From positions 1,043,409-1,082,885 of the forward strand of contig NZ_MTFE01000010.1 of assembly GCF_001953305.1 (NCBI RefSeq): a stretch of 39,477 nt of DNA, given 5' to 3'. Position numbers and translations under genes: made by a program. The notes beneath the pieces are model-generated. The model searched no databases, had not been told where the DNA came from, and was given only the letters and a program-made list of their open reading frames with translations. Of the stretch, positions 5,583 to 33,582 are shown in pieces. Source of the stretch: Cnuella takakiae. GTDB lineage: Bacteria; Bacteroidota; Bacteroidia; Chitinophagales; Chitinophagaceae. Numbering within the stretch: position 1 is the stretch's first letter; every line of letters starts with the position of its first letter.

Positions 5583-6788
5583 TTACAAAAACAGCTTTAC
5601 AATATAAAACACCCCAGCCGCCAGCAGGGCACTCACCGGGATGGTGAGGATCCAGGCCCAGAGGAGGTTGATGGTAACACCCCAACGTACCGCACTCAGG
5701 CGTTTGGTGGCGCCTACACCAATGATGGCACCGGTGATGGTGTGGGTGGTACTTACGGGTATTTTCAGCGCCTCTGTGGTGAAGAGGGTAATGGCACCGG
5801 CCGTTTCGGCAGCAACACCTTCAAAAGGCGTCACCTTGGTGATGCGGGTACCCATGGTTTTTACAATCTTCCAGCCGCCGCTCATGGTACCCAGGCCAAT
5901 GGCTGCATAGCAGGCCAGCGGCACCCAGGTGGGCATTTCTTCAAACGAAGAGATGGAACCATGTGCAATCAGTGCCGCGGTGATGATACCCATTACTTTC
6001 TGGGCGTCGTTGCCGCCGTGGCCGATGGAGAAAGCAGCTGAAGAAACCAGCTGTAGCTTTTTAAACCAGGCGTTTGCGCGGGCTGCATTGAGCGTATTGA
6101 GCCAAAAGGTAAACAGGGCCAGTACCACCAGGATGATGGACAACAGGATCCACTTGAAGTTCTTGGAATAGAAGATCACCTTCATGGCATACGACTCGTA
6201 GTGTGTAGCCAGCTTCTCGGGGTTGGTTTCCAGGTTGGCGTACAGGAACCAGGCCACGCCTGTAAGAATGATCAGGGACAACACCTTGGGACCTGCACCT
6301 TTTTTGAAAGAGAAGATAAACCAGAGGGAAATGATAAAGGCAAAGAGCATGCCCACAAAGGGCGCCAGCAGGATGAAAGAAGCCGTCTTCAGGATCACCG
6401 GCGCATTAACGGCATCGATGCCGCCAGCAGCGATACCCGCACCGGCAAAACCACCGATGAGCGTGTGTGAAGAAGAAGAAGGAATACCAAACCACCAGGT
6501 AAACAGGTTCCATGCAATAGCAGCGATAAGACCTGCAAATACCACGGTGAGCATGCTGGCAGACTCTACATTCTCGGGCTTTACGGTTTTGGCAACCGTA
6601 TCGGCCACGCCGTGGTCTTTAAATATAAAGAAGGCAGCGAAGTTGAACAGTGCCGCCCAAAGCACCGCCTGGAAAGGTGTCAGCACCTTGGTGGATACAA
6701 CGGTGGCTATTGAGTTGGCCGCATCGTGGAAGCCGTTGATATAATCAAAGACCAACGCGAGTGCGATGATGACAATGAGGAAAGTCAT
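5583..6788 (-). CDS. pitA: PiT-family inorganic phosphate transporter
   Basis: The 401-residue protein is an inner-membrane phosphate:cation symporter of the PiT (PHO4) family. The two inverted family signatures are present: GFHDAANSIATVVSTK near residues 19-34 and GHGGNDAQKVMGI in the second half. The paired loops GIPSSSSHTLIGG and VSTTHTITGAIIG are also present. About ten hydrophobic segments are visible, with a central cytoplasmic region. It lies downstream of the DUF47/PhoU-like gene with a 112-bp gap holding a long inverted repeat; this gene pair is a widespread arrangement in which the PhoU-like protein modulates the transporter. The PhoBR-type regulators about 10 kb to the right support a phosphate role. 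Length is normal for short bacterial PiT proteins. Confidence 0.95.
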   Translation of the reverse strand: MTFLIVIIALALVFDYINGFHDAANSIATVVSTKVLTPFQAVLWAALFNFAAFFIFKDHGVADTVAKTVKPENVESASMLTVVFAGLIAAIAWNLFTWWFGIPSSSSHTLIGGFAGAGIAAGGIDAVNAPVILKTASFILLAPFVGMLFAFIISLWFIFSFKKGAGPKVLSLIILTGVAWFLYANLETNPEKLATHYESYAMKVIFYSKNFKWILLSIILVVLALFTFWLNTLNAARANAWFKKLQLVSSAAFSIGHGGNDAQKVMGIITAALIAHGSISSFEEMPTWVPLACYAAIGLGTMSGGWKIVKTMGTRITKVTPFEGVAAETAGAITLFTTEALKIPVSTTHTITGAIIGVGATKRLSAVRWGVTINLLWAWILTIPVSALLAAGVFYIVKLFL

Positions 6789-6900: not shown

Positions 6901-7548
6901 TTAAGCGTATTTAACAATGATGGATTCAATCACGTTGGCAGCGTCTTCACACTTGTCGGTGGCGGTTTCCATCACCTGGTAGATCTCACGCTTCTTGATC
7001 ACTTCCTTCGCATCGGACTCGGTGGCAAAAAGGCGCTCGATGCTCATGTCGTAAATGTCGTCAGCCTGGTTTTCCAGCGAGTTCACTTTTACCAGCGACT
7101 CGGTGATGAGGCGCATGTTCTTCATGTCGCGCAGTTCGCCTACGGCCTTACGTACCTCGCATGCGCTCTGGCCGATGATCTCGGCCAGTTTGTGGAAGCC
7201 GGTATCATTGGGGTTAACACGGTAGAAGTTGATCTTTTTGGCAGAAGCATAAATATAGTCTGCAATATCATCGAGCGAAGAAGCGAGGTAGTGGATGTCT
7301 TCCCGGTCAAACGGTGTAATGAAGTTGCGGCCCAGTTCGGTGAAGATGCGGTGCGTGAGCTCGTCGTTGGCATGCTCCAGGTCTTCCATTTGCGCGGTTA
7401 CCTGTTGGCGTTTGTCAAAGTCAGGTTCGTTCACAACCTGAGAGAGCAGTTTCGCCATTTTCTCAACGTTGTCAGCACATTCTTCAAAAAGGCTGTAAAA
7501 CACTTTGTCCTTTGGCATGAAGAGTTTCATGAAGGAGTTCAAGGCCAT
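6901..7548 (-). CDS. DUF47 / PhoU-like regulator of phosphate transport
   Basis: The 215-residue protein belongs to the DUF47 family (TIGR00153-like), distant relatives of PhoU made of helical bundles that bind metal clusters and usually pair with PiT transporters. Typical stretches are EDLEHANDELTHRIFTELGRNFITPFDREDIHYLASSLDDIADYIYA near residues 55-101 and EIYQVMETATDKCEDAANVIESI at the C-terminus. The conserved acidic E/DxxxD positions are present. The frame is open to 7596, but ATG at 7548 gives the usual family start (MALNSFMKLFMPKD). It is the first gene of the unit with pitA and diverges from the porin gene; the shared 169-bp spacer carries Pho-box-like words. Probable role: controlling or gating PitA. 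Confidence 0.93.
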   Translation of the reverse strand: MALNSFMKLFMPKDKVFYSLFEECADNVEKMAKLLSQVVNEPDFDKRQQVTAQMEDLEHANDELTHRIFTELGRNFITPFDREDIHYLASSLDDIADYIYASAKKINFYRVNPNDTGFHKLAEIIGQSACEVRKAVGELRDMKNMRLITESLVKVNSLENQADDIYDMSIERLFATESDAKEVIKKREIYQVMETATDKCEDAANVIESIIVKYA

Positions 7549-7612
7549 AGAGTATCTGTTTAGAGGCCGCAAAGTTATAGCAATGCATGTTGGCACACTT
7601 GTTAAGGGGATA

Positions 7613-7669
7613 ATTAATGATTTGGTAACATAGCCTATAACATTGAGTTCACAAACGGTCCCAATTTCG
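7613..7669 (+). promoter_or_regulatory. Putative Pho-box array and -7 element before the porin
   Basis: Words ATTAATG (7613), GGTAACA (7624), TATAACA (7636) and GTTCACA (7647) start at steps of 11, 12 and 11 bp. They repeat the vocabulary found before the 9384 gene. Eight bases after the last word is CAATTTCG (7662-7669), a partial match to the TAnnTTTG -7 element. The spacing of box to -7 resembles activation by PhoB-type OmpR-family regulators. The 12-bp step and weaker words make this less certain than the 9305 array. Confidence 0.5.
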
Positions 7670-7717: not shown

Positions 7718-9028
7718 ATGAAATCTGTTCTTTTTATCGTTGTGGCCGCATGTGCTTTATTCTTAATGCCTTTTAATGCAGCTGCGCAACGATATCTCAC
7801 GGAGTACGACTCTACCTTGTTTATCCGTGATACCGTCCGACCCGTAGTGAAGCGTATGGAAAACCTGTACTTCTCCGGCTATATACAGCCGCAGTTCCAG
7901 GTAGCCCAATCAAAAGGAGCACCTTCTTATGAAGGCGGAAATTTTTCCGAGTTCAGCAATAACCGTTTTATGTTGCGCCGTGCCCGTGTGAAGCTGGATT
8001 ATTTCTTTCCTTCCAAAAACAGCAGTTTCCCTGCAGCGCTTTTTGCCTTCCAGTTTGATGCCACCGAACGTGGGGTAAATGTGCGGGATATGTATGCCCG
8101 TGTATTTGAACCAAAGGGGCACAACTTTGCGCTTACCATGGGTATTTTTGCCCGGCCATTTGGTTATGAAATAAACCTCTCTTCGGCCTTCCGCGAAACG
8201 CCTGAACGTGGCCGTATGTCGCAGATACTCATGCCCACCGAACGCGACCTGGGCGCCATGCTGAGTTACGAGCCACAAAAGAAAAAAGGTAAGTTCAAAC
8301 CCTTTAAGTTAGATGTGGCACTGGTAAACGGTCAGGGACTTGCTCCCGGCGGTACTACCGATTTCGACCAGTATAAAGACCTGGTCAGCCGCTTTACCCT
8401 CAAGCCCATACCCGTTGGCGGTCTGACCCTTTCGGGTGGATTATCGCTGCTGAACGGCGGCTGGCGGCAGGCCACCAAGTACAAATGGACCATGTCCGAT
8501 AATAGCGGCAAATACAACTTCAACCTCGACTCCAGCCTTTCCAACCTGGGTGGAAAGGCCGAACGCCGGTACTATGGCGCCGATGTGCAACTGGTAAAGA
8601 AACATGGCTGGGGTAAAACAGAGTTCCGCGCCGAATACTGGCGTGGCTTGCAACCCGGCACTGCCAAAACCACTACCAACCCCGGCATCCTGCCCCTTGA
8701 TCCTACATTTATCCGTCCTTTCGACGGAGGCTTTTTTTACTTCCTGCAAAACCTGGGCAACAGCAAGAACGAGTTGATGGTGAAATACGATTGGTATGAT
8801 CCCAACCGCAAGGTGGGTGGTCCCCAGATTGGTATGAATGGCGGCGGTTTCACTGCAGCAGATGTGCGTTTTGATACCTGGGGTGTAGGCTTGACGCGCT
8901 GGCTCACCGACCGGGTAAAGTTCCTGGTGTACTACGATTTTGTAAAAAATGAAAAGACCAGTGTAGCCGGGTATACACAAGACCTCAAGGATAATATTTT
9001 TACGGCCCGTTTCCAGTTCCGCTTTTAA
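7718..9028 (+). CDS. Outer-membrane porin, OprO/OprP-like
   Basis: The 436-residue protein has a signal peptide (MKSVLFIVVAACALFLMPFNAAAQ) and a beta-barrel style sequence of alternating aromatic and polar residues ending in ...DNIFTARFQFRF with terminal Phe, typical of outer-membrane barrels. The segment NRFMLRRARVKLDYFFP and the following GIFARPFGYEINLSS region resemble the phosphate-selective porin O and P family. The gene diverges from DUF47-pitA, and Pho-box-like words precede it, so phosphate uptake across the outer membrane is likely. Substrate specificity cannot be proven from the sequence. A strong terminator follows at 9108-9138. Confidence 0.88.
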   Translation: MKSVLFIVVAACALFLMPFNAAAQRYLTEYDSTLFIRDTVRPVVKRMENLYFSGYIQPQFQVAQSKGAPSYEGGNFSEFSNNRFMLRRARVKLDYFFPSKNSSFPAALFAFQFDATERGVNVRDMYARVFEPKGHNFALTMGIFARPFGYEINLSSAFRETPERGRMSQILMPTERDLGAMLSYEPQKKKGKFKPFKLDVALVNGQGLAPGGTTDFDQYKDLVSRFTLKPIPVGGLTLSGGLSLLNGGWRQATKYKWTMSDNSGKYNFNLDSSLSNLGGKAERRYYGADVQLVKKHGWGKTEFRAEYWRGLQPGTAKTTTNPGILPLDPTFIRPFDGGFFYFLQNLGNSKNELMVKYDWYDPNRKVGGPQIGMNGGGFTAADVRFDTWGVGLTRWLTDRVKFLVYYDFVKNEKTSVAGYTQDLKDNIFTARFQFRF

Positions 9029-9138: not shown

Positions 9139-9304
9139 ATAAGGTATTGTGCTGTGGTAAGTTCAATGTTTATTTGGTCAATGGATCTAAATCATTCGAT
9201 GAAGCATAGCCCAGTTCAAAAGCAAAGCGCACCGGGTGTGAATCATGCAAACTGCATCATACAAATTATTCTTAATCATACAAATCTGCGGTTCTTAATA
9301 TTGG
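9139..9304. repeat. Spacer with atttgtatgatt-type repeat
   Basis: Part of the 355-bp gene-free stretch 9029-9383. It contains aatcatacaaatctgcggtt at 9274-9293 and a partial second word (catcatacaaatt) at about 9256-9268. The 20-mer recurs exactly, inverted, at 17344-17363 and with one mismatch at 17554-17573. No gene is visible; the short frame starting near 9109 crosses the terminator and repeat and has no family features. Confidence 0.75.
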
Positions 9305-9372
9305 GGTAACATTCAGTTCACATACTGTTAATGTGGGGGTAACAAAGCGGTAACATACTACGCATTGTTTTG
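9305..9372 (+). promoter_or_regulatory. Five-word 11-bp-periodic Pho-box array and -7 element
   Basis: Five 7-bp words start at exactly 11-bp intervals: GGTAACA (9305), GTTCACA (9316), GTTAATG (9327), GGTAACA (9338) and GGTAACA (9349). Nine bases later is TTGTTTTG (9365-9372), close to the Bacteroidetes -7 consensus TAnnTTTG; no -33 TTTG is found where it should be, because the boxes occupy that place. PhoB and other winged-helix regulators of the OmpR family bind tandem 7-bp half-sites with 4-bp spacers, one site per helical turn, just upstream of the core promoter. An OmpR-family regulator of the PhoB type is encoded at 16570-17247. Confidence 0.72.
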
Positions 9373-9383
9373 CAGGAAATTTG

Positions 9384-12179
9384 ATGCGCATGTCCGTTAG
9401 GCTACTCTTGACCAACTTCCTCATCCTGCTCTGTGCCACTGCCTTTGCGCAAAACCTGCGCCTCACCGGCAAGATCACCAACGATAAAAACGAACCGGTA
9501 CCCGGCGTTTCGGTAAGTGCCAAAGGAGGCAGCGCTACCACTACCAATGTGGAGGGGGTATTTGCCCTTGCACTTGCTGCTGGCAAGTACGAACTCTCCT
9601 TTACCGCTGTAGGATATGCGCCCAAAACCATCAGCGATGTGGAAGTAGCAGCTAGCGGCAACAACCAGCTGAATATTGTACTGGAAACTTCTTCCAAACA
9701 ATTGTCTAATGTAACGGTTTCTACTACCCGCTCTACCGCACGCCGCGAGAGTGTAAATGCCATCGTTGCGTTCCAGAAAAATACCAATACCGTAGCTTCT
9801 GTAATTTCTGCAGAAACCATCCGCCGCTCACCCGACCGCAATACCGGCGAAGTGCTGAAGCGTATTCCCGGCGCCTCTATCCAGGAGGGCCGCTTCCTGG
9901 TGATCCGTGGTTTGGCCGACCGCTATAATATGGCCATGCTGAACGGTGTTCCGCTCAGCTCAACAGAGCCCGACCGCAAAACCTTTTCTTTCGACCTGAT
10001 TCCTTCTTCCATGATTGATAACATCGTTATCAACAAGGCCTTTGTTCCGGAAATGCCCGGCGACTGGGCCGGTGGCCTGGTACAGGTAAACACCCGCGAT
10101 ATTCCTGCCCAGAACTTCTTCAACATCTCCATCGGTACCGGTTTCAACAGCCAAACCATTACCAATAATTTTTACACCTATAAAGGTGGTAAACTCGACT
10201 TCATTGGTGTAGACGATGGTACCCGTGCACTGCCTTCTGGTTATACTACCAAATCGCAGTTCCTGGCTGCTTCGCAAGAGCAAAAGAATGCGGTTGGACT
10301 GGCCATGGATAATGTGTGGTCGGCCAACACCATTGCCACTCCTTTGAATTCCAACTTCCAGGTGAATGGTGGTTTTAAAAGCACTTTGTTCGGTAAAAAC
10401 ATGGGCGGCTCTTTTGGTGTAAACTACCAGCGCAACAGCCGCTTTCAAAAGCTGCAAAACAACCAGTACACCTTTCCCAACCTGGGTGTTGATTACGAGT
10501 TCAATGATGACCGTTACACACAGGATGTGCTGCTGGGGGGCATGGGTAACCTCACCATGGACCTAAACAACAACAACCGCATTTCTTACAAGGCTTTATT
10601 CAACGTAAATACCAACGATTATGTAACACTGCGCAACGGTACCGAGAACTTTGGCAGCACCACATTGGATAGCGTGCGTGCCCGTGAGCTGGGTTTTCAG
10701 CAAAACACTTTCTGGAGCAACCAGCTTACCGGTGAGCACAACCTGCCTTCGGTAAAAACCAAGCTGCGTTGGTATGGTTCCTTCAACATCCTGGATGGCT
10801 ATGTGCCCGACCAGCGCCGTATATTTTACCGCAAAGACAACGGCAGCACCAACGGTTACCAGATGCTGGTATCCAACACGCTCAGCCAGCGCAGCGGCAA
10901 CCGCTTTTACCAGATGCTAAACGAGTATGTGTACACCGGTGGTGGCGACCTTACCAAAACCTATACTGCTTTTGGCAAAACACAAACCCTAAAGGGCGGT
11001 TACCTCTTCCAGGTGCGCGACCGTTTGTTTGATGCCAATCCTTTCTCTATCGCATTGGTTGGTTTTAATAACGACCTTACCCGCCAGGAGCCCGAGCAGG
11101 CTTTTGCACCCGCCAACTTCACCAGCACCGGCGAGCAGGGCAAATTTTACTTTGATGCCATCCCCGGCAACCGCTTCCGCTACATGGCCAACACCATCCT
11201 GAATGCAGGCTTTGTACAGTTCGACAACCAGGTAGGCGATATGCGTGTGGTGTGGGGTGTGCGTGTAGAAGACTACGACCAGCTGGTGGGCAGCCCCAGG
11301 AAAACCGACTCGCGTCATATCAATACGCGGGTGCGCGACTTCCTGCCCGGTTTGAATGCAACCTATAAACTGAATCCTAAAACCAATATTCGCCTGAGTG
11401 CTTCACAAACCGTGGTACGTCCCGAGTTTCGCGAACTGGCACCCTTCGAGTTCTACGACTTTGAGCTGAACGCCGCCGTGGTAGGTAACCCCCGCCTGGA
11501 ACGCACCAAGGTTACCAATGCCGACCTGCGGTATGAGCTTTATCCCCGCGCCGGTGAAACCTTCAACCTGGGTGCTTTCTACAAATTCTTCGATAAGCCC
11601 ATCGAGCAGCTGTTCTTCCAGGCAGGTGGCGGAGCCTCCTCTTTTGCCTTTGCCAACCCACAAAGTGCCCAAACCTTTGGCGCAGAAGTGGAGCTGCGCA
11701 AGCGCCTCGACTTTATTGGGCTGAACAATTTCACCTTCCAAACCAACCTGGCCTATATCCACAGCCGCATCATGGATGACAGCCTGAAGGCTGCCGGCTT
11801 CTCCATCGATCGCCCGTTGCAAGGCCAGAGCCCCTACGTGGTGAATGCCTCCATCATGTACGACAACGAAAAGGCCGGCCTGAACGCCACCCTGTTGTTC
11901 AACCAGATTGGCCGCCGTATTTACCTGGTGGGCAACGTACTGCAGAATGTACCCGATGTATGGGAAAACCCCCGCCAGCTCTTCGATTTCCAATTGGGTA
12001 AAAAGCTGATGAAAAACAAAGGTGAACTGAAGTTGAATGTATCAGACATACTCAACCAACGCCTGATCTTTCATCAGAATGCCGACAGCAACGAAAAGTA
12101 TAACGAAGGCACCGACCGCGTACGCTTCAGCCGCCGCATGGGCAGCAATGTGAGCGTGAGCTTTGGATATAATTTTTAA
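9384..12179 (+). CDS. TonB-dependent receptor, probably phosphate-regulated
   Basis: The 931-residue outer-membrane protein has a signal peptide (residues 1-23), a carboxypeptidase-regulatory-like beta domain (about 24-105: LRLTGKITNDKNEPVPGVSVSA), a plug domain (about 115-255, containing VLKRIPGASIQEGRFLVIRGLADRYNMAMLNGVPLSS) and a 22-strand-type barrel ending in VSVSFGYNF with terminal Phe. It imports a ligand with energy from TonB-ExbBD. AGGA at 9374-9377 favours ATG 9384 over the upstream TTG and the later ATG 9390. It is followed by a beta-helix lipoprotein rather than a SusD homologue. The Pho-box array upstream suggests induction in low phosphate and therefore a phosphorus-containing ligand (inference). 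A metal or siderophore ligand is the alternative. Confidence 0.93.
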   Translation: MRMSVRLLLTNFLILLCATAFAQNLRLTGKITNDKNEPVPGVSVSAKGGSATTTNVEGVFALALAAGKYELSFTAVGYAPKTISDVEVAASGNNQLNIVLETSSKQLSNVTVSTTRSTARRESVNAIVAFQKNTNTVASVISAETIRRSPDRNTGEVLKRIPGASIQEGRFLVIRGLADRYNMAMLNGVPLSSTEPDRKTFSFDLIPSSMIDNIVINKAFVPEMPGDWAGGLVQVNTRDIPAQNFFNISIGTGFNSQTITNNFYTYKGGKLDFIGVDDGTRALPSGYTTKSQFLAASQEQKNAVGLAMDNVWSANTIATPLNSNFQVNGGFKSTLFGKNMGGSFGVNYQRNSRFQKLQNNQYTFPNLGVDYEFNDDRYTQDVLLGGMGNLTMDLNNNNRISYKALFNVNTNDYVTLRNGTENFGSTTLDSVRARELGFQQNTFWSNQLTGEHNLPSVKTKLRWYGSFNILDGYVPDQRRIFYRKDNGSTNGYQMLVSNTLSQRSGNRFYQMLNEYVYTGGGDLTKTYTAFGKTQTLKGGYLFQVRDRLFDANPFSIALVGFNNDLTRQEPEQAFAPANFTSTGEQGKFYFDAIPGNRFRYMANTILNAGFVQFDNQVGDMRVVWGVRVEDYDQLVGSPRKTDSRHINTRVRDFLPGLNATYKLNPKTNIRLSASQTVVRPEFRELAPFEFYDFELNAAVVGNPRLERTKVTNADLRYELYPRAGETFNLGAFYKFFDKPIEQLFFQAGGGASSFAFANPQSAQTFGAEVELRKRLDFIGLNNFTFQTNLAYIHSRIMDDSLKAAGFSIDRPLQGQSPYVVNASIMYDNEKAGLNATLLFNQIGRRIYLVGNVLQNVPDVWENPRQLFDFQLGKKLMKNKGELKLNVSDILNQRLIFHQNADSNEKYNEGTDRVRFSRRMGSNVSVSFGYNF

Positions 12180-12323: not shown

Positions 12324-13784
12324 ATGAAACGCATACTTTTTCTCTCAGTAGTACTTGCATCTGCCCTGTTCAGCTGTCGCAAAATTGAAGTGGACGGCGA
12401 TGGTATCACTGTGGTGCAACCCGGCAATGGTGGCAGTACCCGCCAGACCATTACCCTTACCGGACGTATCGACAGCAATATGACGCTGACTGCAGCCAAC
12501 GATTATGTACTCGATGGCTTCACCTATATCATGCCCAATCGCACCCTTACCATTCAGCCGGGTGTAACCGTTAAAGCGAATTTCACTGGCTCCAATGTAG
12601 GTGCCCTGGTTATTACCCGCGGTGCTAAAATCGTTGCCAGCGGCAATGCTACCAATCCCATCGTATTTACTTCTGCCAACACCACGCCCCGCAGCGGCGA
12701 CTGGGGTGGCATTGTGATCTGCGGTAAAGCGCCTGTAAACACTACTTCTACTGCTGGTGCCGGCACTTTTGTGGTGGAAGGTGGTATCAACACCTCCGAT
12801 GGCCTGGGTGTGGCAGGTGGCACCGATGCTGCCGACAGCTCGGGTGTGCTGCGTTATGTGCGCATCGAGTATGCCGGTTATGCCCAGCAGCCCGACCAGG
12901 AGATCAACTCGCTGACTATGGCTGCTGTAGGTAGCAAAACCGTAGTGGAATACGTGCAGGTTTCGCATGCCAAGGATGATGCTTTTGAATGGTTTGGCGG
13001 TACGGTAAATGCCCGTTACCTGGTGGCTTACAAAACACAGGACGACGACTTCGATACCGACAACGGTTTCAGTGGTTCGGTACAGTTTGGCCTGGTGTTC
13101 CGTGATTCCTCCATTGCCGATATCAGCCGCTCCGAAGCTTTTGAAAGCGACAACGACGCCAGTGGTACCGCCAACCAGCCCAAGACCCTGGCCGTGTTCA
13201 GCAATATCACTGCCATCGGTCCCCGCGCTACACTAACCAATGTAGGCAACCCGCTCTACCTGGCAGGTGCGCAAGTCCGCCGCAACTCCGGCATCTCTAT
13301 TTACAACTCTGTATTTATGGGCTGGCCGCAGGGTGTGCTCATCGACGACAGCCGCGGTCTGGTATGGGACGATGTGCAGGACAGCACCGTACGTTTTGCA
13401 GGCAACCTGATTGCCGGTACTGCTACGCCTTTTGGTTATGCTTCCGGTACCCTTGCTACGCCTCCCGCTACTGCTGCCGGTGTAGACGCCTGGTTCCGCG
13501 ACCCTTTCTATCGCAATACCGTACTGGCCAACAACGAGCAGGTGGGTTATACCCGTCCGTTTGATTACACCAACCCTGACTTTTCGCCCTTTGCTGCTGG
13601 TACCATCAGCATTCCAGGCTTCCCTTCGGGTCCCAACCCCATCGTTGGTGCAGCTAATGTAACCTATACCGATACCCGCATCGCTGCCCGTCCTTACATA
13701 CAGGCGGTAACTTTCCGCGGTGCCATTGGTGCCAGCGGTGAAGCCAACAACTGGTATAAAGGCTGGACCCGTTTTGGCAACTAA
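12324..13784 (+). CDS. Surface lipoprotein with right-handed beta-helix repeats
   Basis: The 486-residue product starts with a lipoprotein signal (MKRILFLSVVLASALFSC, Cys18 followed by Arg-Lys). The mature protein has repeated short strands and turns such as DGFTYIMPNRTLTIQPGVTVKANF, GALVITRGAKIVASG and NPIVFTS, typical of parallel beta-helix proteins. Acidic clusters (HAKDDAFEWFGG, KTQDDDFDTDNGFSG, SEAFESDNDASG) could bind Ca2+ or other cations. It ends without a visible type IX secretion domain. Placed 145 bp after the TonB-dependent receptor on the same strand, it occupies the position a SusD ligand-binding lipoprotein would hold. Probable role: surface capture or release of the receptor's ligand; catalysis cannot be excluded, since beta-helix proteins include esterases and lyases. 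Confidence 0.85.
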   Translation: MKRILFLSVVLASALFSCRKIEVDGDGITVVQPGNGGSTRQTITLTGRIDSNMTLTAANDYVLDGFTYIMPNRTLTIQPGVTVKANFTGSNVGALVITRGAKIVASGNATNPIVFTSANTTPRSGDWGGIVICGKAPVNTTSTAGAGTFVVEGGINTSDGLGVAGGTDAADSSGVLRYVRIEYAGYAQQPDQEINSLTMAAVGSKTVVEYVQVSHAKDDAFEWFGGTVNARYLVAYKTQDDDFDTDNGFSGSVQFGLVFRDSSIADISRSEAFESDNDASGTANQPKTLAVFSNITAIGPRATLTNVGNPLYLAGAQVRRNSGISIYNSVFMGWPQGVLIDDSRGLVWDDVQDSTVRFAGNLIAGTATPFGYASGTLATPPATAAGVDAWFRDPFYRNTVLANNEQVGYTRPFDYTNPDFSPFAAGTISIPGFPSGPNPIVGAANVTYTDTRIAARPYIQAVTFRGAIGASGEANNWYKGWTRFGN

Positions 13785-15333: not shown

Positions 15334-16407
15334 CTATCTTCTATCATCCATTGCAGTAAGTTGTCTTTCCCTGCGGGCTACATCCAGCGAAAAGCCAAAA
15401 GTGCTGCCAACGCCTTCCTTGCTGCGTACATGCAGGTTGTAACCATGGGCTTCAATGATGTGTTTACAAATGGATAGACCCAGCCCGCTGCCCTTCAGGT
15501 CGCGGCCCCTGCCTTCCTGGGTGCGGAAGAAGCGTTCAAATACGCGGGAGATATATTTTTCTGGAATCCCCATGCCGTCATCGGAAATCTCTACCAGCAC
15601 GTGTTTGCCATCGGTATTATACACACTGGCGATGGTATTGCCATTGCGGCGGCCGTACTTGATGGAGTTGTCTACCAGGTTGATGAGCACCTGCCGGATC
15701 TTGTCTTTATCGCCAAATACTATTTGCCCCTGTTCACTGCCTTTTTTAAACGAAAAGGTGATATTGTGCTGTTCGGCTTTAAGCGCCAGGGTTTCAAAAG
15801 CTTCGCGAATCAGGTCCTGTACGATAAAGTTCTGGCGGTGGAGCTTCAGTTCGCCGCGTTCCAATTTGGAAATTTCGTCCAGGTCCTGGATCAGCCGCGA
15901 GAGGCGCTCCACGTTCTGGCTTGCTTTTTCAAGGAAGCGCCGGTTGACCTCGGGGTTTTCGAGGGCGCCCTGCAATAAGGTGTCCACATAACCTTGTATG
16001 GCAAAAACAGGTGTTTTAAACTCGTGCGACAGGTTTTGCAAAAACTCTTTGCGGAACTGCTCGTTCTTTTTCAGGATTTCGATCTCGTCCTTTCTTTTCT
16101 GCGCCCATGCCTCCACATCCAGGCGCACTTCATCAAGTGTTTTCTGTGGCAGGATGTACTTATAATAGGTCTCTTCCTTTTTGCTGGCCTTAGTGTGGTA
16201 GATAAACTTGTAGATCAGCTTGATTTTGCGGAATATAAACCGCTCGAACATGGTCATGATCACCAGGTAGCTGCCCAGGAAGAACAGGACAAAGGCACCC
16301 AGGCCATAATGCCAGTTTGCCTCCAGTATCCACACGCCAAGCCCGCTGGGTACAGCCAGGATGAGTGCGGTAAGTGCCGATAGCTGGCGGGAAGTAAGGT
16401 CTTTCAT
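15334..16407 (-). CDS. phoR: Membrane sensor histidine kinase, PhoR-like
   Basis: The 357-residue kinase has two TM segments near the N-terminus (about residues 9-28 and 33-53) with almost no periplasmic loop, as in PhoR-type kinases that sense through a partner and not directly. HisKA has the phosphoacceptor His128 in NLSHEFKTPVFAIQGY. The ATPase domain shows NLVDNSIKYG (N box), DDGMGIP (G1) and GSGLGLSICKHIIEAHG (G2). It lies downstream of the OmpR-family regulator on the same strand, the usual pair. No PAS domain is visible. The phoR name is inferred from architecture, the PhoB-like partner and the phosphate genes nearby; another two-component role remains possible. Confidence 0.85.
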   Translation of the reverse strand: MKDLTSRQLSALTALILAVPSGLGVWILEANWHYGLGAFVLFFLGSYLVIMTMFERFIFRKIKLIYKFIYHTKASKKEETYYKYILPQKTLDEVRLDVEAWAQKRKDEIEILKKNEQFRKEFLQNLSHEFKTPVFAIQGYVDTLLQGALENPEVNRRFLEKASQNVERLSRLIQDLDEISKLERGELKLHRQNFIVQDLIREAFETLALKAEQHNITFSFKKGSEQGQIVFGDKDKIRQVLINLVDNSIKYGRRNGNTIASVYNTDGKHVLVEISDDGMGIPEKYISRVFERFFRTQEGRGRDLKGSGLGLSICKHIIEAHGYNLHVRSKEGVGSTFGFSLDVARRERQLTAMDDRR

Positions 16408-16569: not shown

Positions 16570-17247
16570 TCAGAGCTCAAATTTATACCCTACACCTTTT
16601 ACGGTAGTAATACAATCCACACCCATCTTCTGGCGGATTTTGCGGATGTGTACGTCAATGGTTCGGTCGCCTACAATAACATCATTGCCCCATACCTGGC
16701 TCAGGATTTCGTTGCGCAGGAACACGCGGCCGGGTTTGGTAGCCAGCAGGTGCAGCAGTTCAAATTCCTTTTTTGCCAGGGTGATCTCGCTGCCTTCGTA
16801 TTCGACCACAAACTTTTCGGGGTCGATCACCAGGCTGTCGATGGCAATGGAACTGCTGTCGGGTTGCTTGAGCCGGCGGAAAAGGGCGGCCACCTTGCTC
16901 AGGAACACCTGTGTGCTGATGGGTTTGCTGATATAATCGTCGGCGCCGGTTGTGAGGCCTTTCACCTGGGTGGCTTCGTCGCTCAGGGCAGTGAGGAAGA
17001 GGATCAGGGTGTCTTTGAACTGGGCCTGTGCCCGCAGCAGTTCGCACACTTCCACGCCAGTTTTCCGGGGCATCATGATGTCGAGGATCACCAGGTGGGG
17101 GTTAAACTTCTTGGCTTTATCCAAAGCTTCATCGCCGTCCTTGGCTGTTGCCACCTCGTAGCCTTCCTTTTCCAGGTTGTACTTCAAAAATTCCAAAATA
17201 TCAGGCTCATCATCGGCAAGCAATACCTTTCGGGCCTTGGTACTCAT
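16570..17247 (-). CDS. phoB: OmpR-family response regulator, PhoB/PhoP-like
   Basis: The 225-residue protein has a receiver domain (about 8-122): acidic pocket ADDEPD, phosphoacceptor Asp56 in LVILDIMMPRKTG, Thr in LFLTALSD, Lys in YISKPIS. A C-terminal winged helix (about 135-225) follows, including KKEFELLHLLATKPGRVFLRNEILSQVWG and RTIDVHIRKIRQKMG, the recognition helix and wing. ATG 17247 (MSTKARKVLLADDEPD) is preferred over 17271. It is first in the operon with the phoR-like kinase. A pair of Pho-box-like words lies 1-18 bp before the start codon, consistent with autoregulation. It is the natural candidate to bind the 11-bp-periodic arrays at 9305 and 7613. Confidence 0.9.
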   Translation of the reverse strand: MSTKARKVLLADDEPDILEFLKYNLEKEGYEVATAKDGDEALDKAKKFNPHLVILDIMMPRKTGVEVCELLRAQAQFKDTLILFLTALSDEATQVKGLTTGADDYISKPISTQVFLSKVAALFRRLKQPDSSSIAIDSLVIDPEKFVVEYEGSEITLAKKEFELLHLLATKPGRVFLRNEILSQVWGNDVIVGDRTIDVHIRKIRQKMGVDCITTVKGVGYKFEL

Positions 17248-17248
17248 A

Positions 17249-17266
17249 TGTTTACTAATTGTTACC
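17249..17266 (-). promoter_or_regulatory. Pho-box-like pair overlapping the phoB translation start region
   Basis: On the minus strand GGTAACA-ATTA-GTAAACA ends one base before ATG 17247. The two words start 11 bp apart, as in the 9305 array. The position is downstream of any likely promoter (a TCTATTTG sequence lies about 20 bp further up), so it would act as a repressing or road-block site if real. With only two words, chance is not excluded. Confidence 0.4.
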
Positions 17267-17595
17267 AGCAAACCTAAAACAAATAGATTACCCTGAACGG
17301 GCCTTTACATGAAGTTTATGTAGAGTTAATAAAAACTTAATGGAACCGCAGATTTGTATGATTAGAAGGGATTTGTATGATTTTACCTTCCTGCTCTTTC
17401 ACCTATAGTAAGAGAAAAGTAAGATCCTTTCGAAAATGTTTCTTGTTTGTTCAAATGCATTGTTGCCTTTTGCAAAGCTGTATTAAACAATAAACGCGCT
17501 TTAAGCTGCCTGATTTTCCACTTCTTGCCCCTGAATTCTTTTAAATCATTCCTAATCATACAAATCAGCGGTTATATGGGTATTAAATTTGCGCT
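17267..17595. repeat. Divergent phoB / caspase-like spacer with inverted 20-mers
   Basis: The gene-free spacer 17248-17595 carries an inverted pair: aaccgcagatttgtatgatt at 17344-17363 and its complement with one mismatch at 17554-17573. A second atttgtatgatt word is at 17371-17382. The remaining roughly 160 bp between the arms (17383-17545) shows nothing recognisable. At 17584-17591 TAAATTTG is a perfect -7 element for the 17596 gene. Confidence 0.75.
17584..17591 (+). promoter_or_regulatory. -7 promoter element close to the start codon
   Basis: TAAATTTG matches the Bacteroidetes -7 consensus TAnnTTTG exactly; no clear -33 TTTG is found 19-20 bp upstream. It ends only 4 bp before ATG 17596, so the mRNA would be leaderless or translation would begin at the second ATG (17605). 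Confidence 0.55.
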
Positions 17596-27292: not shown

Positions 27293-30200
27293 CTATTTGT
27301 ACAGCCACACACGCATCAGGGAAAGCAATTGGTCGATTTTAACAGGTTTGGTAATGTAGTCGGACGCACCGGCGTCGATACATTTTTCGCGGTCGCCTTT
27401 CATGGCCTTGGCGGTAACGGCAATGATGGGCAGGTTGCTGTTTTTGTGCTCTCTGCGGATCTTTTGCGTGGTTTCGTAGCCGTCCATTTCGGGCATCATA
27501 ATGTCCATCAGCACCATGTCGATATTCCGGTTCTCACCCAGGATATTGATGGCTTCCTGCCCGCTTTCGGCCGTGATGGTGTTGATGTTGTAGCGCTCAA
27601 ATGCAGTAGTAAGGGCAAAGAGGTTGCGTACATCATCATCCACCACCAGCACAGTTTTATTGGCCAGGATGTCTTCCCGCGAACGCAGGTTGTCTATCAG
27701 CTTGCGCTTTTCGGGCAATAGCTGTTTGTGGTCGAGGTGGAGGTGTAGCACCGCCTCTTCCAACAGCATTTCCAGCGAGTTTACATCCTTGAGCAACACC
27801 TTGCTGGCGTATTGCTTCAGCAGGGTTTTTTCTTTAACCGAAAAATCTTTTGCCGAATACACCAACACCGGTGTCATGCCTATTTTCTTGCGGGTGTTCA
27901 GTTGGGAGAGGAATTCAGAACCGCTGATGTCGGGCAGCATATAATCCACGATCATGCAGTCGTAGTTTTCTGCTTCGGCCATTTCCAGTCCCAATGTTCC
28001 CGAGGATGCCACTTGAATATGGATGGCATCTCCGTTATCGAGGATCTTGGCAATCTGCGATGCATCCAGCTCATTGTCTTCCACTACCAGTACCCGTTTT
28101 GTTTTGCGCAGGCTGTACTGGTCGATGTCTTCAAACAATACGGTTAGGGCCTCGTTCTTCAAGGGTTTAAGGTTGAAGCTGCGGGCGCCTCGTTGCATGG
28201 CCAGCAGGCGGTTTTCCTCACCCGAAATCAGGTGTACCGGTATATGCCTGAAGTTGATATCGTGTTTGAATAAATCAAGGATGCGCCAGCCACTTGCATC
28301 CGGCAGCTTTACATCAAGGGTAACGGCTATGGGGTTGTATTTATTGGCCAGCTCAAACACATCGCCAAAGCTGGTAGCTACCACCACTTTCAAACCCAGC
28401 TCGTGGGCCTTTTCGATCATGATCTTGGCAAAACGGATATCGTCTTCCACCACCATCACTACCCGGTCTTCGGGCGAGATGGTGTTGCGGTCATCGCCGG
28501 TTTCGTTGATGATCTCGTTCAGCACATCCAGGTCCTTGGTTTCCGCTACCTTGATGGTAGGCACACTCTGGATGGCAATGTTTTCACCGCTTTCCGCCAG
28601 CTTGTATTCGGTAACCTTCAGGCTGCTTTGCTTTTCGCGCTTCACCGCGTTGGGGTTGTAGTCGATGGGCAGGAAGAGGGTAAAGGTGCTGCCTTTGCCG
28701 GGTTCGCTTTGCAGTTCAATCACACCACCCAACAGGTCGGCCAGGCCGCGGCTGATGGAGAGGCCTAAACCGGTACCGCCGTACTTGCGGCTGGTAGAGC
28801 CTTCTGCCTGCTGGAAGGCTTCAAAGATGATGTTCTGTTTGTCTTTTGAAATGCCGATGCCGGTATCCTTGATTTCGAAGGCCACCACCTTGCGGGCATT
28901 ATCGAGGCTGGGAACGCCTGCCTTCCAGTTGTTTTGCGCCTCGTAGATCTTCAGTTTCACCTCGCCTTTTTCGGTAAACTTGAAGGCATTGGACAAGAGG
29001 TTTTTCAAAATCTGGTTCAAACGCTGGATATCCGTTTCCAGCATGTGCGGCAGGTTCTGGTCTATTTCGGTACCAAAACGCAGGTTTTTGCTTTCCGACA
29101 CATGTTTGAAGGTGCTTTCCACAAAAGAGGCGATCTCGTTGAACCGCACTTTGATGAAATCGGTAGAGATATAGCCCGATTCGATCTTCGACAAATCGAG
29201 AATGTCGTTGATCAGCTGGATGAGGTCGTCGCCACAGCTGTGGATGGTTTTGGCGTACCGCACCTGTTTTTCGGTCAGGTTGCCTTCCTGGTTTTCGAAA
29301 AGTTGCTGTGCCAGGATGAGCAGGGAGTTCAGCGGTGTACGCAACTCGTGCGACATGTTGGCGAGGAACTCCGATTTGTACTTGGAGGTAAGCTGCAGCT
29401 GTTCGGCTTTTTCTTCCAGCGAACGGCGTGCTTCTTCCACTTCCTTGTTCTTGGCTTCCACTTCTTCCTTCTGTTTTACCAGCAGGTGGGCCTTGTCCTG
29501 GAGCTCTTCGTTGGTACGGCGCAGCTCATCGGCCAGCGACTGCGACTGTGCCAGCAGGTCCTCGGTACGCGAGTTGGCCTCGATGGTGTTCAGTACGATA
29601 CCAATGGATTCAGTCAGCTGGCTGAGGAAGTCGAGGTGGGTTTCACTGAAGGTGTCGAAAGACGCCAGTTCAATAACCGCCTTGATCTCCGTTTCAAACA
29701 GTACCGGCAATACAATCAGGTTCACCGGTGATGCCTGTCCGAGACCGGAGCTGATTTTGATATAATTTTTGGGCACATTGGTGAGCAGGATGCGTTCTTT
29801 TTCCAGTGCGCACTGCCCTACCAGGCCTTGGCCCAATGCAAATTCACGGGAAATATTTACTTCTTCGCCGGAAGCATAGGCCGAGAAGAGTTTGAGTTTT
29901 TGGTTTTCAAAATTCTCGTCCTGCTCCAGGATGTAGAACATGCCCTGCTGGGCGCTTACCACCTGCGCCAGTTCCGAAAGGATCTTGCGGGTTACGGTGT
30001 GCAGGTCTTTTTGGCCCTGCAGCATCTGGGTAAACTTAGCCAGGTTGCCTTTCAGCCAGTCCTGCTCCTGGTTGCGGAGGGTGGTTTCTTTCAGGTTGGC
30101 AATCATCTGGTTGATGGTATCCTTCAGTTCCTCCAGTTCGCCCTTGGCTTCTACACGGATGGTACGGGTCAGTTCACCCTTGGTTACCGACAAGGCTACC

Positions 30201-33200
30201 TCGGAGATGGCCCGCACCTGGATGGTGAGGTTTTCCGCCAGCTGGTTTACGTTCTCAGTCAGGTTTTTCCAGATACCCGATGCACCCGGCACCGAGGCCT
30301 GTCCGCCCAGTCGGCCTTCTACACCCACTTCGCGGGCCACATTAGTTACCTGGTCGGCAAAGAGGGCCAGGGTATCAATCATCTCGTTGATGGTGTCGGT
30401 GAGCTGGGCCACCTCGCCACGCGATACAATGGAGAGTTTTTGTTTGAGGTTACCGGTAGCTACCGCGGTTACTACCTTGGCAATACCGCGTACCTGGTTG
30501 GTGAGGTTGGAGGCCATGGAGTTTACCGAGTCGGTCAGGTCCTTCCAGGTACCGGCAACGCCCTGTACCTCGGCCTGTCCGCCCAACTTACCTTCCGTAC
30601 CTACTTCACGGGCTACCCGTGTTACCTCAAAGGCAAAAGAGTTCAGCTGGTCCACCATCGTGTTGATGGTGTTCTTCAGGTCGAACATTTCGCCTTTTAC
30701 GTCGATGGTTACCTTCTTGGAAAGGTCACCCGAAGCCACCGCCTTGGTTACCTCGGCGATGTTGCGCACCTGTGCCGTCAGGTTACCGGTCATCTGGTTT
30801 ACCGAGTCGGTCAGGTCCTTCCAGGTACCGGCAACGCCCGGTACGAAGGCCTGTCCACCCAGTTTACCATCGGTACCCACCTCACGGGCCACACGGGTTA
30901 CTTCGGAGGCGAAGGCACGCAGCTGGTCCACCATCGTATTGAGGGTTTCTTTCAGCTGGAGCATTTCGCCGCGAACGTCCACGGTGATCTTTTTACTCAT
31001 GTCCCCGTTGGCCACCGCGATCGCTACTTCGGCGATGTTGCGCACCTGTCCGGTGAGGTTGGAGGCCATACCGTTCACCGAGTCGGTCAAATCCTTCCAG
31101 GTACCACCTACGCCGGGTACATAAGCCTGTCCACCCAGCTTACCGTCGGTACCTACTTCACGGGCCACACGCGTTACTTCGGAGGCGAAGGAGCGGAGCT
31201 GTTCCACCATCGTGTTGATGGTGTTTTTCAGTTCCAGCATTTCCCCTTTTACGTCCACCTCGATCTTGCGCGACAGGTCACCGTAAGCCACCGCGGTGGT
31301 TACTTCCGCGATGTTCCGTACCTGCGCCGTCAGGTTCGAGGCCATTTTATTTACAGAGTCGGTCAAATCTTTCCAGAGGCCTTCCACACCCGGTACGTCG
31401 GCCTGTCCACCCAGTTTACCGTCGGTACCTACCTCACGGGCAACCCGGAACACTTCCGAACCAAAGGAGTTCAGCTGGTCCACCATGGTATTAATGGTGT
31501 TTTTGAGCTGCAACATTTCACCGCGAACATCCACCGTGATCTTGCGCGAAAGGTCACCTTTTGCTACCGCGGTGGTTACCTCGGCGATGTTGCGCACCTG
31601 GCCGGTAAGGTTGGAGGCCATACCGTTCACCGAATCCGTTAAGTCTTTCCAGGTGCCGCCCACACCCTGTACTTTGGCCTGTCCGCCCAGCTTACCTTCG
31701 GTACCCACCTCGAGGGCCACACGGGTTACCTCGGCGGAGAAGGAGTTGAGCTGGTCCACCATCGTATTAATGGTATTCTTCAGTTCCAGGATTTCGCCCT
31801 GCGCATCTACCGTAATTTTTTTAGAAAGGTCACCTTTTGCCACCGCGGTGGTTACTTCCGCGATTGAACGTACCTGGGTGGTAAGGTTACCTGCCAGCTG
31901 GTTTACGTTGTCGGTAAGGCCTTTCCATACCCCACCAACGCCCTGTACCTTGGCCTGCCCGCCCAGCTTACCTTCCGAACCTACTTCAAGGGCCACACGG
32001 GTCACCTCGGAAGCAAAGGAGTTCAGCTGGTCCACCATGGTGTTGATTACATCCTTGATCTGGAGGATCTCGCCTTTTACATCCACGGTGATTTTCTGGG
32101 TCAAGTCACCGTTGGCAATGGCGGTTGCTACTTTCGATACGTCACGGAGCTGTACGGTAAGGTTGCCCGCCAGCTGGTTTACGTTGTCGGTCAGATCCTT
32201 CCATACGCCTCCCACGCCTTTTACCGTAGCCTGTCCACCCAGCTTACCGTCGGAGCCTACTTCGCGGGCCACACGGGTAACTTCCGCCGAGAAGGAGTTG
32301 AGCTGGTCCACCATGGTGTTGATGGTGTTCTTCAGCTGCAACATTTCACCGCGTACGTCCACTGTAATTTTCTTGGAAAGGTCGCCGTTGGCCACCGCGG
32401 TGGTTACTTCGGCAATGTTCCGTACCTGGTTGGTGAGGTTGGAGGCCATACCGTTCACCGAGTCGGTAAGGTTCTTCCAGGTACCGGCCACACCGGGTAC
32501 CTGGGCCTGCCCACCCAATTTTCCTTCGGTACCCACTTCAAGGGCCACACGGGTCACCTCGGAGGAGAAGGAGTTGAGCTGGTCCACCATCGTGTTGATG
32601 GTGTTTTTGAGCTGGAGGATTTCGCCCTGGGCGTCTACGGTGATCTTTTTGGAAAGGTCACCTTTTGCCACGGCCGTGGTCACTTCCGCAATAGAGCGCA
32701 CCTGGGTAGTAAGGTTGCCGGCCATGCCGTTTACCGAGTCGGTAAGGTCTTTCCATACACCGGCCACGCCTTTTACACGGGCTTGTCCACCGAGCTTACC
32801 CTCGGAGCCCACTTCGCGGGCCACGCGGGTAACTTCCATGGAAAAGAGGTTGAGCTGTTCCACCATGTCGTTTACCTCGCGGGCAATACGGGCAAACTCG
32901 CCCTGCAGGCGGTGGTCGCCAATTTGCAGGGGCATTTCTTTCGACAGGTTACCCTTGGCCACCGAGGAGATCACCGAGGCGATCTCGATGGTGGGGTGCA
33001 CCAGGTCGGAGATGAGCGAGTTGATGGAGTTTACCCCTGTGCGCCAGGCACCCCTCGAGTTCTTGGGAATTTCAACGCGGTGGGTGAGATTGCCTTCCTT
33101 GCCGATGATCTTGTTGGCATCGGTCAATTCCAGCATCAGTATTTCGTTGAGCGTGATGATTTCATTGAGCGTATCGCATATCTTTCCACTGATGCCTACC

Positions 33201-33442
33201 CGGTCTACGGGCATCCGCACGGTGAAGTTGCCGTTCTTGACTTCAGATAATACCCGCAGCAGTTCGCGTCCGTCCAAACCATTGTCCAGCTCTTCGATGG
33301 CAGGCGCTACAATGCGTTCGTTTTGGGTATCAGTTTCGGTATCGGTTGTGTTAACAGGAGCGGGGATAGAAAGGGATAACGGATCGGCCGGAGGAATGGG
33401 CGCATGCGAAGCACTGCCCATACTTTCGTTAGTGCTGTTCAT
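27293..33442 (-). CDS. Giant soluble HAMP-array hybrid histidine kinase
   Basis: About 2,049 residues, no TM segment. A Pro-rich tail (1-60) and divergent HAMP-like units (about 60-202) come first. Then follow ten consecutive 92-residue HAMP/linker units (203-1122; core [19 protein letters not shown], then [16 protein letters not shown], then [10 protein letters not shown] and INTMVDQL). A GAF domain (about 1140-1290), a coiled coil, and HisKA with His1365 in [10 protein letters not shown] follow, then an ATPase domain ([18 protein letters not shown]). Three receiver domains end the protein (about 1655-1770, 1780-1895, 1928-2045), each with its Asp ([24 protein letters not shown]). The plan resembles enlarged fungal group III osmosensing kinases. 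Input may be osmotic or a GAF ligand; unknown. ATG 33442 is preferred over the upstream frame extension. Confidence 0.95.
30077..32836 (-). repeat. Ten tandem 276-bp coding repeats (92-aa HAMP units)
   Basis: Ten in-frame units of exactly 276 bp inside the giant kinase gene. Unit boundaries were checked at 32836 and 30628, exactly 8 units apart. Protein identity between most units is very high; units 9 and 10 are the most divergent. Homologous recombination could change the number of units. Confidence 0.93.
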
Positions 33443-33462
33443 GTTAAGGGATGTTGTAACTG

Positions 33463-33470
33463 TAAACCTA
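33463..33470 (-). promoter_or_regulatory. Possible -7 element of the giant kinase gene
   Basis: TAGGTTTA on the minus strand, one mismatch from TAnnTTTG, lies 20 bp before the start codon 33442. On the other strand TACTTTTA (33562-33569) is an equally imperfect -7 candidate for the divergent regulator gene. Confidence 0.35.
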
Positions 33471-33582
33471 CAGAAAAAGAACATACAAGCCTTTTCCTTT
33501 AGCGCTACAATTGTTGAGCTGCCTGTTAAAATGAGGAACGAAAAGCTGAACAGGAAAGCTGTACTTTTATGAGCCCAATTTT

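Follow-up and report, generated by a model that had tools for sequence, protein, structure and literature searches.

The promoter studied here belongs to a group of genes in a window of 39,477 nucleotides (the whole stretch of Cnuella takakiae DNA that was analysed), in which a TonB-dependent receptor gene lies among porin-like, lipoprotein-like, phosphate-transporter and two-component regulatory genes. The features needed below, with positions counted along the window, are the following:

5583..6788, minus strand: Pit-type phosphate transporter (PHO4) gene, by family match
6901..7596, minus strand: PhoU_div gene, divergent from the porin-like gene
7613..7653, plus strand: second, weaker array (ATTAATG at 7613, GGTAACA at 7624, TATAACA at 7636, GTTCACA at 7647)
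7718..9028, plus strand: porin-like gene, 436 aa (PF07396 Porin_O_P at 16.6 of 20.9 bits, below the cut-off)
9294..9300, plus strand: word 1, CTTAATA
9305..9311, plus strand: word 2, GGTAACA
9316..9322, plus strand: word 3, GTTCACA
9327..9333, plus strand: word 4, GTTAATG
9338..9344, plus strand: word 5, GGTAACA
9349..9355, plus strand: word 6, GGTAACA
9365..9372, plus strand: −7-like element TTGTTTTG, 9 bp past word 6
9384..12179, plus strand: TonB-dependent receptor gene, 931 aa (PF14905, PF13715, PF07715)
12324..13784, plus strand: FII-type lipoprotein-like gene, 486 aa (without a Pfam family; resembles the protein that takes the FII position in the Flavobacterium locus)
15334..16407, minus strand: PhoR/PnpS-like histidine kinase gene, by family match
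16570..17247, minus strand: PhoB-like response regulator gene, ATG at 17247-17245
17269..17276, minus strand: likely phoB −7 element, TAGGTTTG, read from the sequence
17303..17342, plus strand: weak array, inverted with respect to phoB (CTTTACA at 17303, GTTTATG at 17314, GTTAATA at 17325, CTTAATG at 17336)

Upstream of the receptor gene, positions 9294-9355 of the plus strand hold a tandem array of six 7-bp words of the GGTAACA type, all read directly from the sequence, separated by 4-bp spacers and repeated at steps of exactly 11 bp. A preliminary description of this DNA had listed five of these words, starting at 9305, 9316, 9327, 9338 and 9349; all of its coordinates and the 11-bp steps are right, and only its total has to be raised to six, word 1 standing in the same 11-bp register. 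It had also placed a −7-like sequence 9 bp past the last word and had the boxes covering the −33 position, and this agrees with what is found: the TTTG of TTGTTTTG (9369-9372) lies 13 bp downstream of word 6, so spaced that the words overlap the expected −33 position, and the receptor start codon, ATG at 9384, lies downstream of TTGTTTTG. The array thus has the tandem 11-bp direct units (seven conserved and four variable base pairs) of a Pho box, just upstream of the core promoter and over the −35/−33 region, with the start site being a predicted one. The self-identity of 9290-9356 is 0.54 at a lag of 11 and 0.47 at a lag of 22; the remaining 18 lags between 5 and 24 give 0.10 to 0.30. Matches summed over lags 11, 22 and 33 amount to 73. 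None of 20,000 mononucleotide shuffles attains this value; of the 39,410 segments of the window 7 do, and since these start at 9290-9296, all of them are the receptor array itself. The second array, before the porin-like gene, has a 12-bp step between its second and third words (at 7636), and no good −7 was found 13 bp past it.

The gene set of the window resembles, as judged from the sequences, the phoBR locus of Flavobacterium johnsoniae (PMC8115612). The corresponding Flavobacterium locus in SLB02 has the order FII, receptor, PhoB, PhoR, porin and glycosyltransferase, which is that of Fjoh_0546 to 0541. Alignment identities between window and Flavobacterium locus are 26% over 984 columns for the receptor, 33% over 264 residues for the lipoprotein, 23% over 189 residues for the porin-like protein and 52% over 221 for PhoB; by sequence comparison, the window proteins are distant homologs of those of the Flavobacterium locus, and the receptor is likely the counterpart of Fjoh_0545, with the same three Pfam families. 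According to Table 1 of the F. johnsoniae study, whose fold changes are read here as log2, the receptor (8.0), FII (9.9), PhoB (3.1) and the glycosyltransferase (5.4) go up at low phosphate, OprP (−1.3, FDR 0.25) and PhoR (0.8) are not significantly up, and PhoX, at 12.5, is the most strongly induced phosphatase (PMC8115612). The same study counts 95 transcripts whose log2 change on phosphate depletion exceeds 4. Elsewhere in the window (27293-33484, minus strand) lies a gene for a hybrid histidine kinase of 2063 aa, with about ten HAMP stretches, GAF, HisKA and HATPase domains and three receiver domains.

Recurrence of the array in the genome and in relatives

A search for the receptor protein covered 58 genomes, the own one among them; 30 loci were fetched, and 29 of these belong to relatives. 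The best 11-bp array outscores all 200 shuffles of the same sequence in 25 of the 29 ortholog promoters, a result that is partly circular because the word matrix (used also for the unanchored recount below) was set by eye from the own motif. Two further promoters carry weak arrays (L073 and L079, 0.015 in the shuffle test), and at L072 and L081 the best array is indistinguishable from shuffles. In an unanchored count, the spacing from the end of the best array to a TTTG is exactly 13 bp in 19 of the 29; L062 and L069 depart from it by a single unit (2 and 24 bp). Fourteen full six-word ortholog arrays, picked for their six good words, share an invariant T at the third and A at the fifth base of every word, and the fourth base of word 3 is C in 8 of them. 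At L057, a second array of four words lies farther upstream of the receptor gene than the promoter-proximal one.

A sequence-only profile, R1, was trained on the receptor promoters of 19 relatives with the own genome excluded: 10 of the 29 relatives' promoters were left out before it was built, and the 19 kept, aligned on the TTTG, match almost gap-free. Its results in the own genome are free of the circularity of the by-eye word matrix. In the own genome (5.7 Mb, 10 contigs, 99.68% complete), R1 scores the receptor site at 60.2 bits (E = 7.2e-16). The best 150 of 759 first-look candidates were scored, with E up to 10, so that further matches may exist; at least ten places are matched, the nine weaker ones at E values of 2.2e-7, 2.1e-6, 0.0014, 0.0026, 0.0098, 0.037, 0.11, 0.15 and 0.29. 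These nine are:

L083/L204: before genes for SusC-SusD, a phosphodiesterase, Phn-HD-like and PhnX-like proteins, DUF5690 and a TIGR03364 oxidoreductase
L084/L210: before a choice-of-anchor-I (choice_anch_I) lipoprotein gene
L085/L207: before PhoX, then CCP_MauG, like Fjoh_2478/2477
L086/L206: before SusC-SusD-GDPD-phosphodiesterase
L087: before a family-less ORF at the opposite end of the phosphonate-type cluster
L088/L205: with a calcineurin-like phosphoesterase gene (MetallophosN/C) 466 bp downstream
L089: no intact gene next to it
L090/L208: before SusC-SusD-Exo_endo_phos
L091: before the porin-like gene at window position 7718, E = 0.285

Seven of these nine thus precede phosphorus-acquisition-type genes or the porin-like gene, L087 and L089 being the two without a phosphorus-type gene; with the receptor included, 8 of the 10 listed matches precede receptor or phosphorus-type genes. 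At L083/L204 the Phn-HD-like and PhnX-like proteins stay below their own cut-offs and the TIGR03364 oxidoreductase is above its cut-off; the gene set is regarded as a phosphonate-type cluster. The TTTG stands 13 bp past the array in four of the ten (receptor, L083, L085 and L089); the −7 position reads TATG at L084, TTCA at L086 and TTCG at L088, and no good −7 was found at L087, L090 and L091. Near the calcineurin-like phosphoesterase gene there are two array matches (L088; L205, 2395-2438 and the region downstream). One precedes a short ORF interpreted as the beginning of a further phosphoesterase, the other a stretch without an intact gene; these are possibly decayed genes with retained arrays.

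The preliminary description had proposed a genome scan with a two-word pattern, expecting hits to gather upstream of pst, phosphatase and porin genes. Gathering at phosphatase and porin genes is indeed seen with the long profile R1, but not with the two-word pattern, which, at up to two mismatches, gives 65+55 matches (120) genome-wide vs 78+81 (159) in the backward control, that is, no enrichment; its strict form occurs twice in the genome, both times inside the receptor array. Nor is a three-word pattern at up to one mismatch enriched genome-wide (21 matches vs 30 in the control), and its only four perfect matches in the genome are all the receptor array. It is the combination of a long array with the −7 that makes the signal specific, rather than the single word.

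Among relatives, R1 matches at E up to 0.01 were found in 18 of the 19 genomes searched, own included. The 42 matches listed comprise 27 loci read gene by gene, six matches of the own genome and nine counted without gene-by-gene reading; one of the 27, L229, was left out as its contig begins close by. Of the 26 loci counted, 22 precede a receptor-type/SusC gene (14), an FII-like lipoprotein gene (3), a porin gene (3), a PstS-family gene (1) or a DUF5690 gene (1), and L226, L227, L232 and L234 are without such a next gene. L235 was counted as a porin because it is 69% identical to L223, a Porin_O_P match. Eight of the 26 are training loci of R1; in the 18 untrained loci, 14 arrays precede genes of the same five kinds.

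The pst part of the expected gathering fared less well. The PstS-family gene preceded by an array belongs to genome G005 (L230/L256), with four words and 13 bp to the TTTG; its protein is over the cut-off of PF12849 and scores 82.6 of 206.6 bits with TIGR02136, below the PstS cut-off. A survey of 19 PstS-family genes (from 30 loci fetched) found no array directly upstream of 17, a clear one at L256 and two words at L242, the latter being the only one of five PstS genes over the cut-off with an array directly upstream. An array was also seen about 1.3 kb upstream of a PstS-family gene, and pointing the same way, in G004 (107.7 bits) and in G009 (99.2 bits); in G004 a Porin_O_P gene stands between the two.

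Two named Flavobacterium genomes, close relatives of F. johnsoniae, were also searched with R1 (E up to 10), giving 15 and 12 matches with best E values of 0.004 and 0.003, much weaker than those in the own order. Ten of these 27 matches precede genes for the receptor (L177, L191), a porin (L179, L180), an FII-like protein (L189), a protein read as beta-helical without a Pfam family (L185), PhoU_div (L182, L187), a FecR protein (L186) or another receptor-type protein (L197); the other 17 stand before no gene of phosphorus or receptor type. Family assignments were checked for L185-L187 and L197 and for the receptor and porin of SLB02. At the phoBR locus itself, the matches stand before the receptor, FII and porin genes. 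PhoX was found in 3 of 10 Flavobacterium genomes searched, two of them over the cut-off; with at most one good word and no clear array upstream of these three PhoX genes, the array does not explain every strongly induced Flavobacterium gene. In SLB02, L178 and L181 are near-identical R1 matches (E 0.004 and 0.008), and no ORF of 100 aa occurs in the range read.

The PhoB-like regulator, its upstream region and the Pst transporter

The PhoB-like regulator that the preliminary description had pointed out nearby is the product of 16570..17247. It scores 214.3 of the 296.2 bits of the PhoB equivalog TIGR02154 and 211.6 of the 270 of NF053854, below both cut-offs; the Flavobacterium phoBR locus encodes a regulator with similar scores (217.2 and 205.8, respectively). 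The DNA-binding domain of the window's regulator and that of E. coli PhoB align with 65 bits; in the helix region, DRTIDVHIRKIR stands opposite DRTVDVHIRRLR. PhoB and the receptor gene or array lie within 20 kb of each other on one contig in 16 of 37 other genomes (G002, G003, G006, G009 to G016, G020, G038, G040, G042 and G044), among which the proteins of G038, G040, G042 and G044 are distant (receptor 30-32%, PhoB 48-56%).

The weak array upstream of phoB may serve as an autoregulatory site. The own genome shares this feature with 14 of 29 relatives, the inverted arrays ending 52-79 bp from the phoB start (p up to 0.03); the test used 100 mononucleotide shuffles with both strands tried, and about 2 of 60 tests are expected to pass by chance. 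Direct arrays before phoB pass the same test in 12 of 30 genomes, and at L293 and L295, from two other families, such an array stands 13 bp from a TTTG. A different candidate for the autoregulatory box, the pair GGTAACA-N4-GTAAACA just before the phoB ATG (17249-17266, minus strand), was rejected: it overlaps the expected transcription start and was not seen at this place in the 29 relatives (L287 has a single GTTAACA), and is probably a chance occurrence.

Another sequence, AATCATACAAATC, has four exact copies in the window, at 9274-9286, 17351-17363, 17370-17382 and 17554-17566, and eight copies at up to two mismatches, vs one expected. The copies adjoin the receptor array and surround the phoB upstream region; it looks like a dispersed intergenic repeat.

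The Pst transporter of a Pst-coupled Pho system was not found in the own genome, in which the best PstB and PstS candidates score 143.5 of 343.2 and 57.9 of 206.6 bits, none over the family cut-off. The genome nonetheless carries a PhoR-PhoB-like pair and a likely phosphorus regulon, and the classical route of PhoR-PhoB sensing thus seems to be missing. Pit and PhoU_div, which both adjoin the second array, are speculative candidates for a signal route, PhoU_div also for its R1 match in both Flavobacterium genomes.

Interpretation of the array

Taken together, the sequence evidence argues that the array is very probably an operator of the phosphate-starvation regulator PhoB, in a form of Pho box belonging to the Bacteroidota. 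The six-word layout with 13 bp to the TTTG is kept before receptor orthologs in many genera, and it recurs at other phosphorus-acquisition genes; 8 of the 10 own matches listed and 14 of the 18 untrained loci in relatives lie upstream of genes expected of phosphate starvation. The link to PhoB itself is drawn from the neighbourhood of the regulator and the similarity of its domains. The probable Bacteroidota Pho box of the preliminary description is thereby strengthened, the array, its spacing, the −7 and the PhoB-like neighbour all being real and R1 finding matches at phosphorus genes.

Under this reading, PhoR would phosphorylate PhoB when phosphate is scarce, and PhoB dimers, up to three of them as the six units suggest, would line up head to tail along the same face of the helix. 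The promoter-proximal dimer would take the place of a −33 element and contact the primary sigma factor, and the receptor gene and the lipoprotein gene downstream would be switched on, together with PhoX, the SusCD-phosphoesterase and phosphonate clusters and the porin-like gene. A smaller number of words, or weaker ones, would make for a weaker response. On balance, we also find it probable that the Bacteroidota have a Pho box of their own, in which six 11-bp units keep a constant 13 bp from the −7 TTTG, take up to three PhoB dimers in tandem and serve promoters with no −33, and which coordinates TonB/SusCD uptake of organic phosphorus and phosphonates. In Pst-less genomes such as this one, the phosphate signal would then have to come to PhoR in some other way, perhaps through Pit and PhoU_div, whose genes lie next to the second array.

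Other explanations have to be weighed against the PhoB operator. Direct repeats of 10-11 bp are often used by OmpR-family regulators, so another of them, global and ArcA-like or PhoP-like, might bind the array with phosphate as one of its outputs; relatives of the regulator have 94 candidate places in the own genome at first look, 78 of them scored. In Riemerella anatipestifer, the DAP-seq motif of PhoP, TTTAACA, is likened to that of E. coli ArcA, and is reported to lie around 579 of 583 peaks, upstream of 764 genes (PMC9603813). We consider such a regulator unlikely here, given the listed own-genome matches before receptor or phosphorus-acquisition genes, the linkage of receptor gene or array to PhoB in other genomes, and the direct array with its 13-bp spacing before phoB itself in two families. 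A tandem repeat born of slippage or chance, without regulatory function, would be in keeping with the ability of slippage to create tandem words and with short word patterns that lack genome-wide enrichment; the array is conserved, however, with the same register and TTTG distance in diverged promoters and a profile of other species that finds the site at E = 7e-16, which makes this explanation so very unlikely as to be nearly negligible.

It is also conceivable, at low odds, that PhoB binds the array mainly to repress or to set basal expression. The overlap of the words with the expected −33 position would suit repression, as would OprP of F. johnsoniae, itself not induced although the porins of its Flavobacterium relatives carry R1 matches. 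An array just upstream of the core promoter has, however, the geometry of an activator site of E. coli PhoB. Furthermore, low phosphate strongly induces what are likely the F. johnsoniae counterparts of receptor and lipoprotein (PMC8115612). We regard a mainly repressing or basal role as highly unlikely, and activation by PhoB as the better account.

If the array is a PhoB operator, the phosphate regulon of the Bacteroidota, a phylum of importance in soil, gut and sea, would have a readable operator sequence, from which the phosphorus regulon of a genome could be listed and SusCD and lipoprotein genes of unknown role assigned to phosphorus scavenging; phosphate sensing in a Pst-less genome would also become testable.

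The E. coli Pho box sits just upstream of the −10, and the PhoP box of Bacillus subtilis has tandem TTAACA-like words, a type to which the preliminary description likened the word found here. No defined Pho box sequence of the Bacteroidota was found in the open-access literature, as far as its accessible text goes. PhoB of Bacteroides fragilis, of the same phylum, binds the pstC promoter in EMSA on a 512-bp fragment, inside which the accessible text maps no site (PMC3547664), and putative Pho boxes are marked upstream of plcP clusters in a study of marine lipids, the portion available giving no sequence (PMC4796936). Riemerella PhoP, also of this phylum and with a motif sharing the TTAACA core, binds in vitro by DAP-seq and EMSA, its own promoter included; its motif is called ArcA-like, and the available text describes no 11-bp multi-unit operator, −7 spacing or phosphorus regulon (PMC9603813). 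The PHO regulon of F. johnsoniae likewise comprises receptor, FII lipoprotein, PhoB, PhoR, OprP, SusCD (Pus) and PhoX with MauG, and the main text of that study has no use of "pho box", "motif" or "promoter" (PMC8115612).

More broadly, the Pho box unit is given by a review as 11 bp (7 conserved and 4 less conserved), with words that depend on the species, such as CTGTCAT and GTTCACC (PMC4415409); 7-bp half-sites with 4-bp spacers had been named at the outset as known PhoB-type geometry. Two or more 11-bp direct units make up the E. coli box as well (PMC4415409), but its word is the Proteobacterial CTGTCAT, from which the GGTAACA found here differs, as had been remarked; in addition, six units occur in the receptor promoter, with a Bacteroidota −7 (TTTG) instead of a −10. 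The PhoP box of Streptomyces coelicolor, from another phylum and promoter type, also consists of 11-bp direct units, GTTCACC, in numbers varying between operators (PMC4415409); only one of the six words here has this form, word 3, GTTCACA, which is one base from it.
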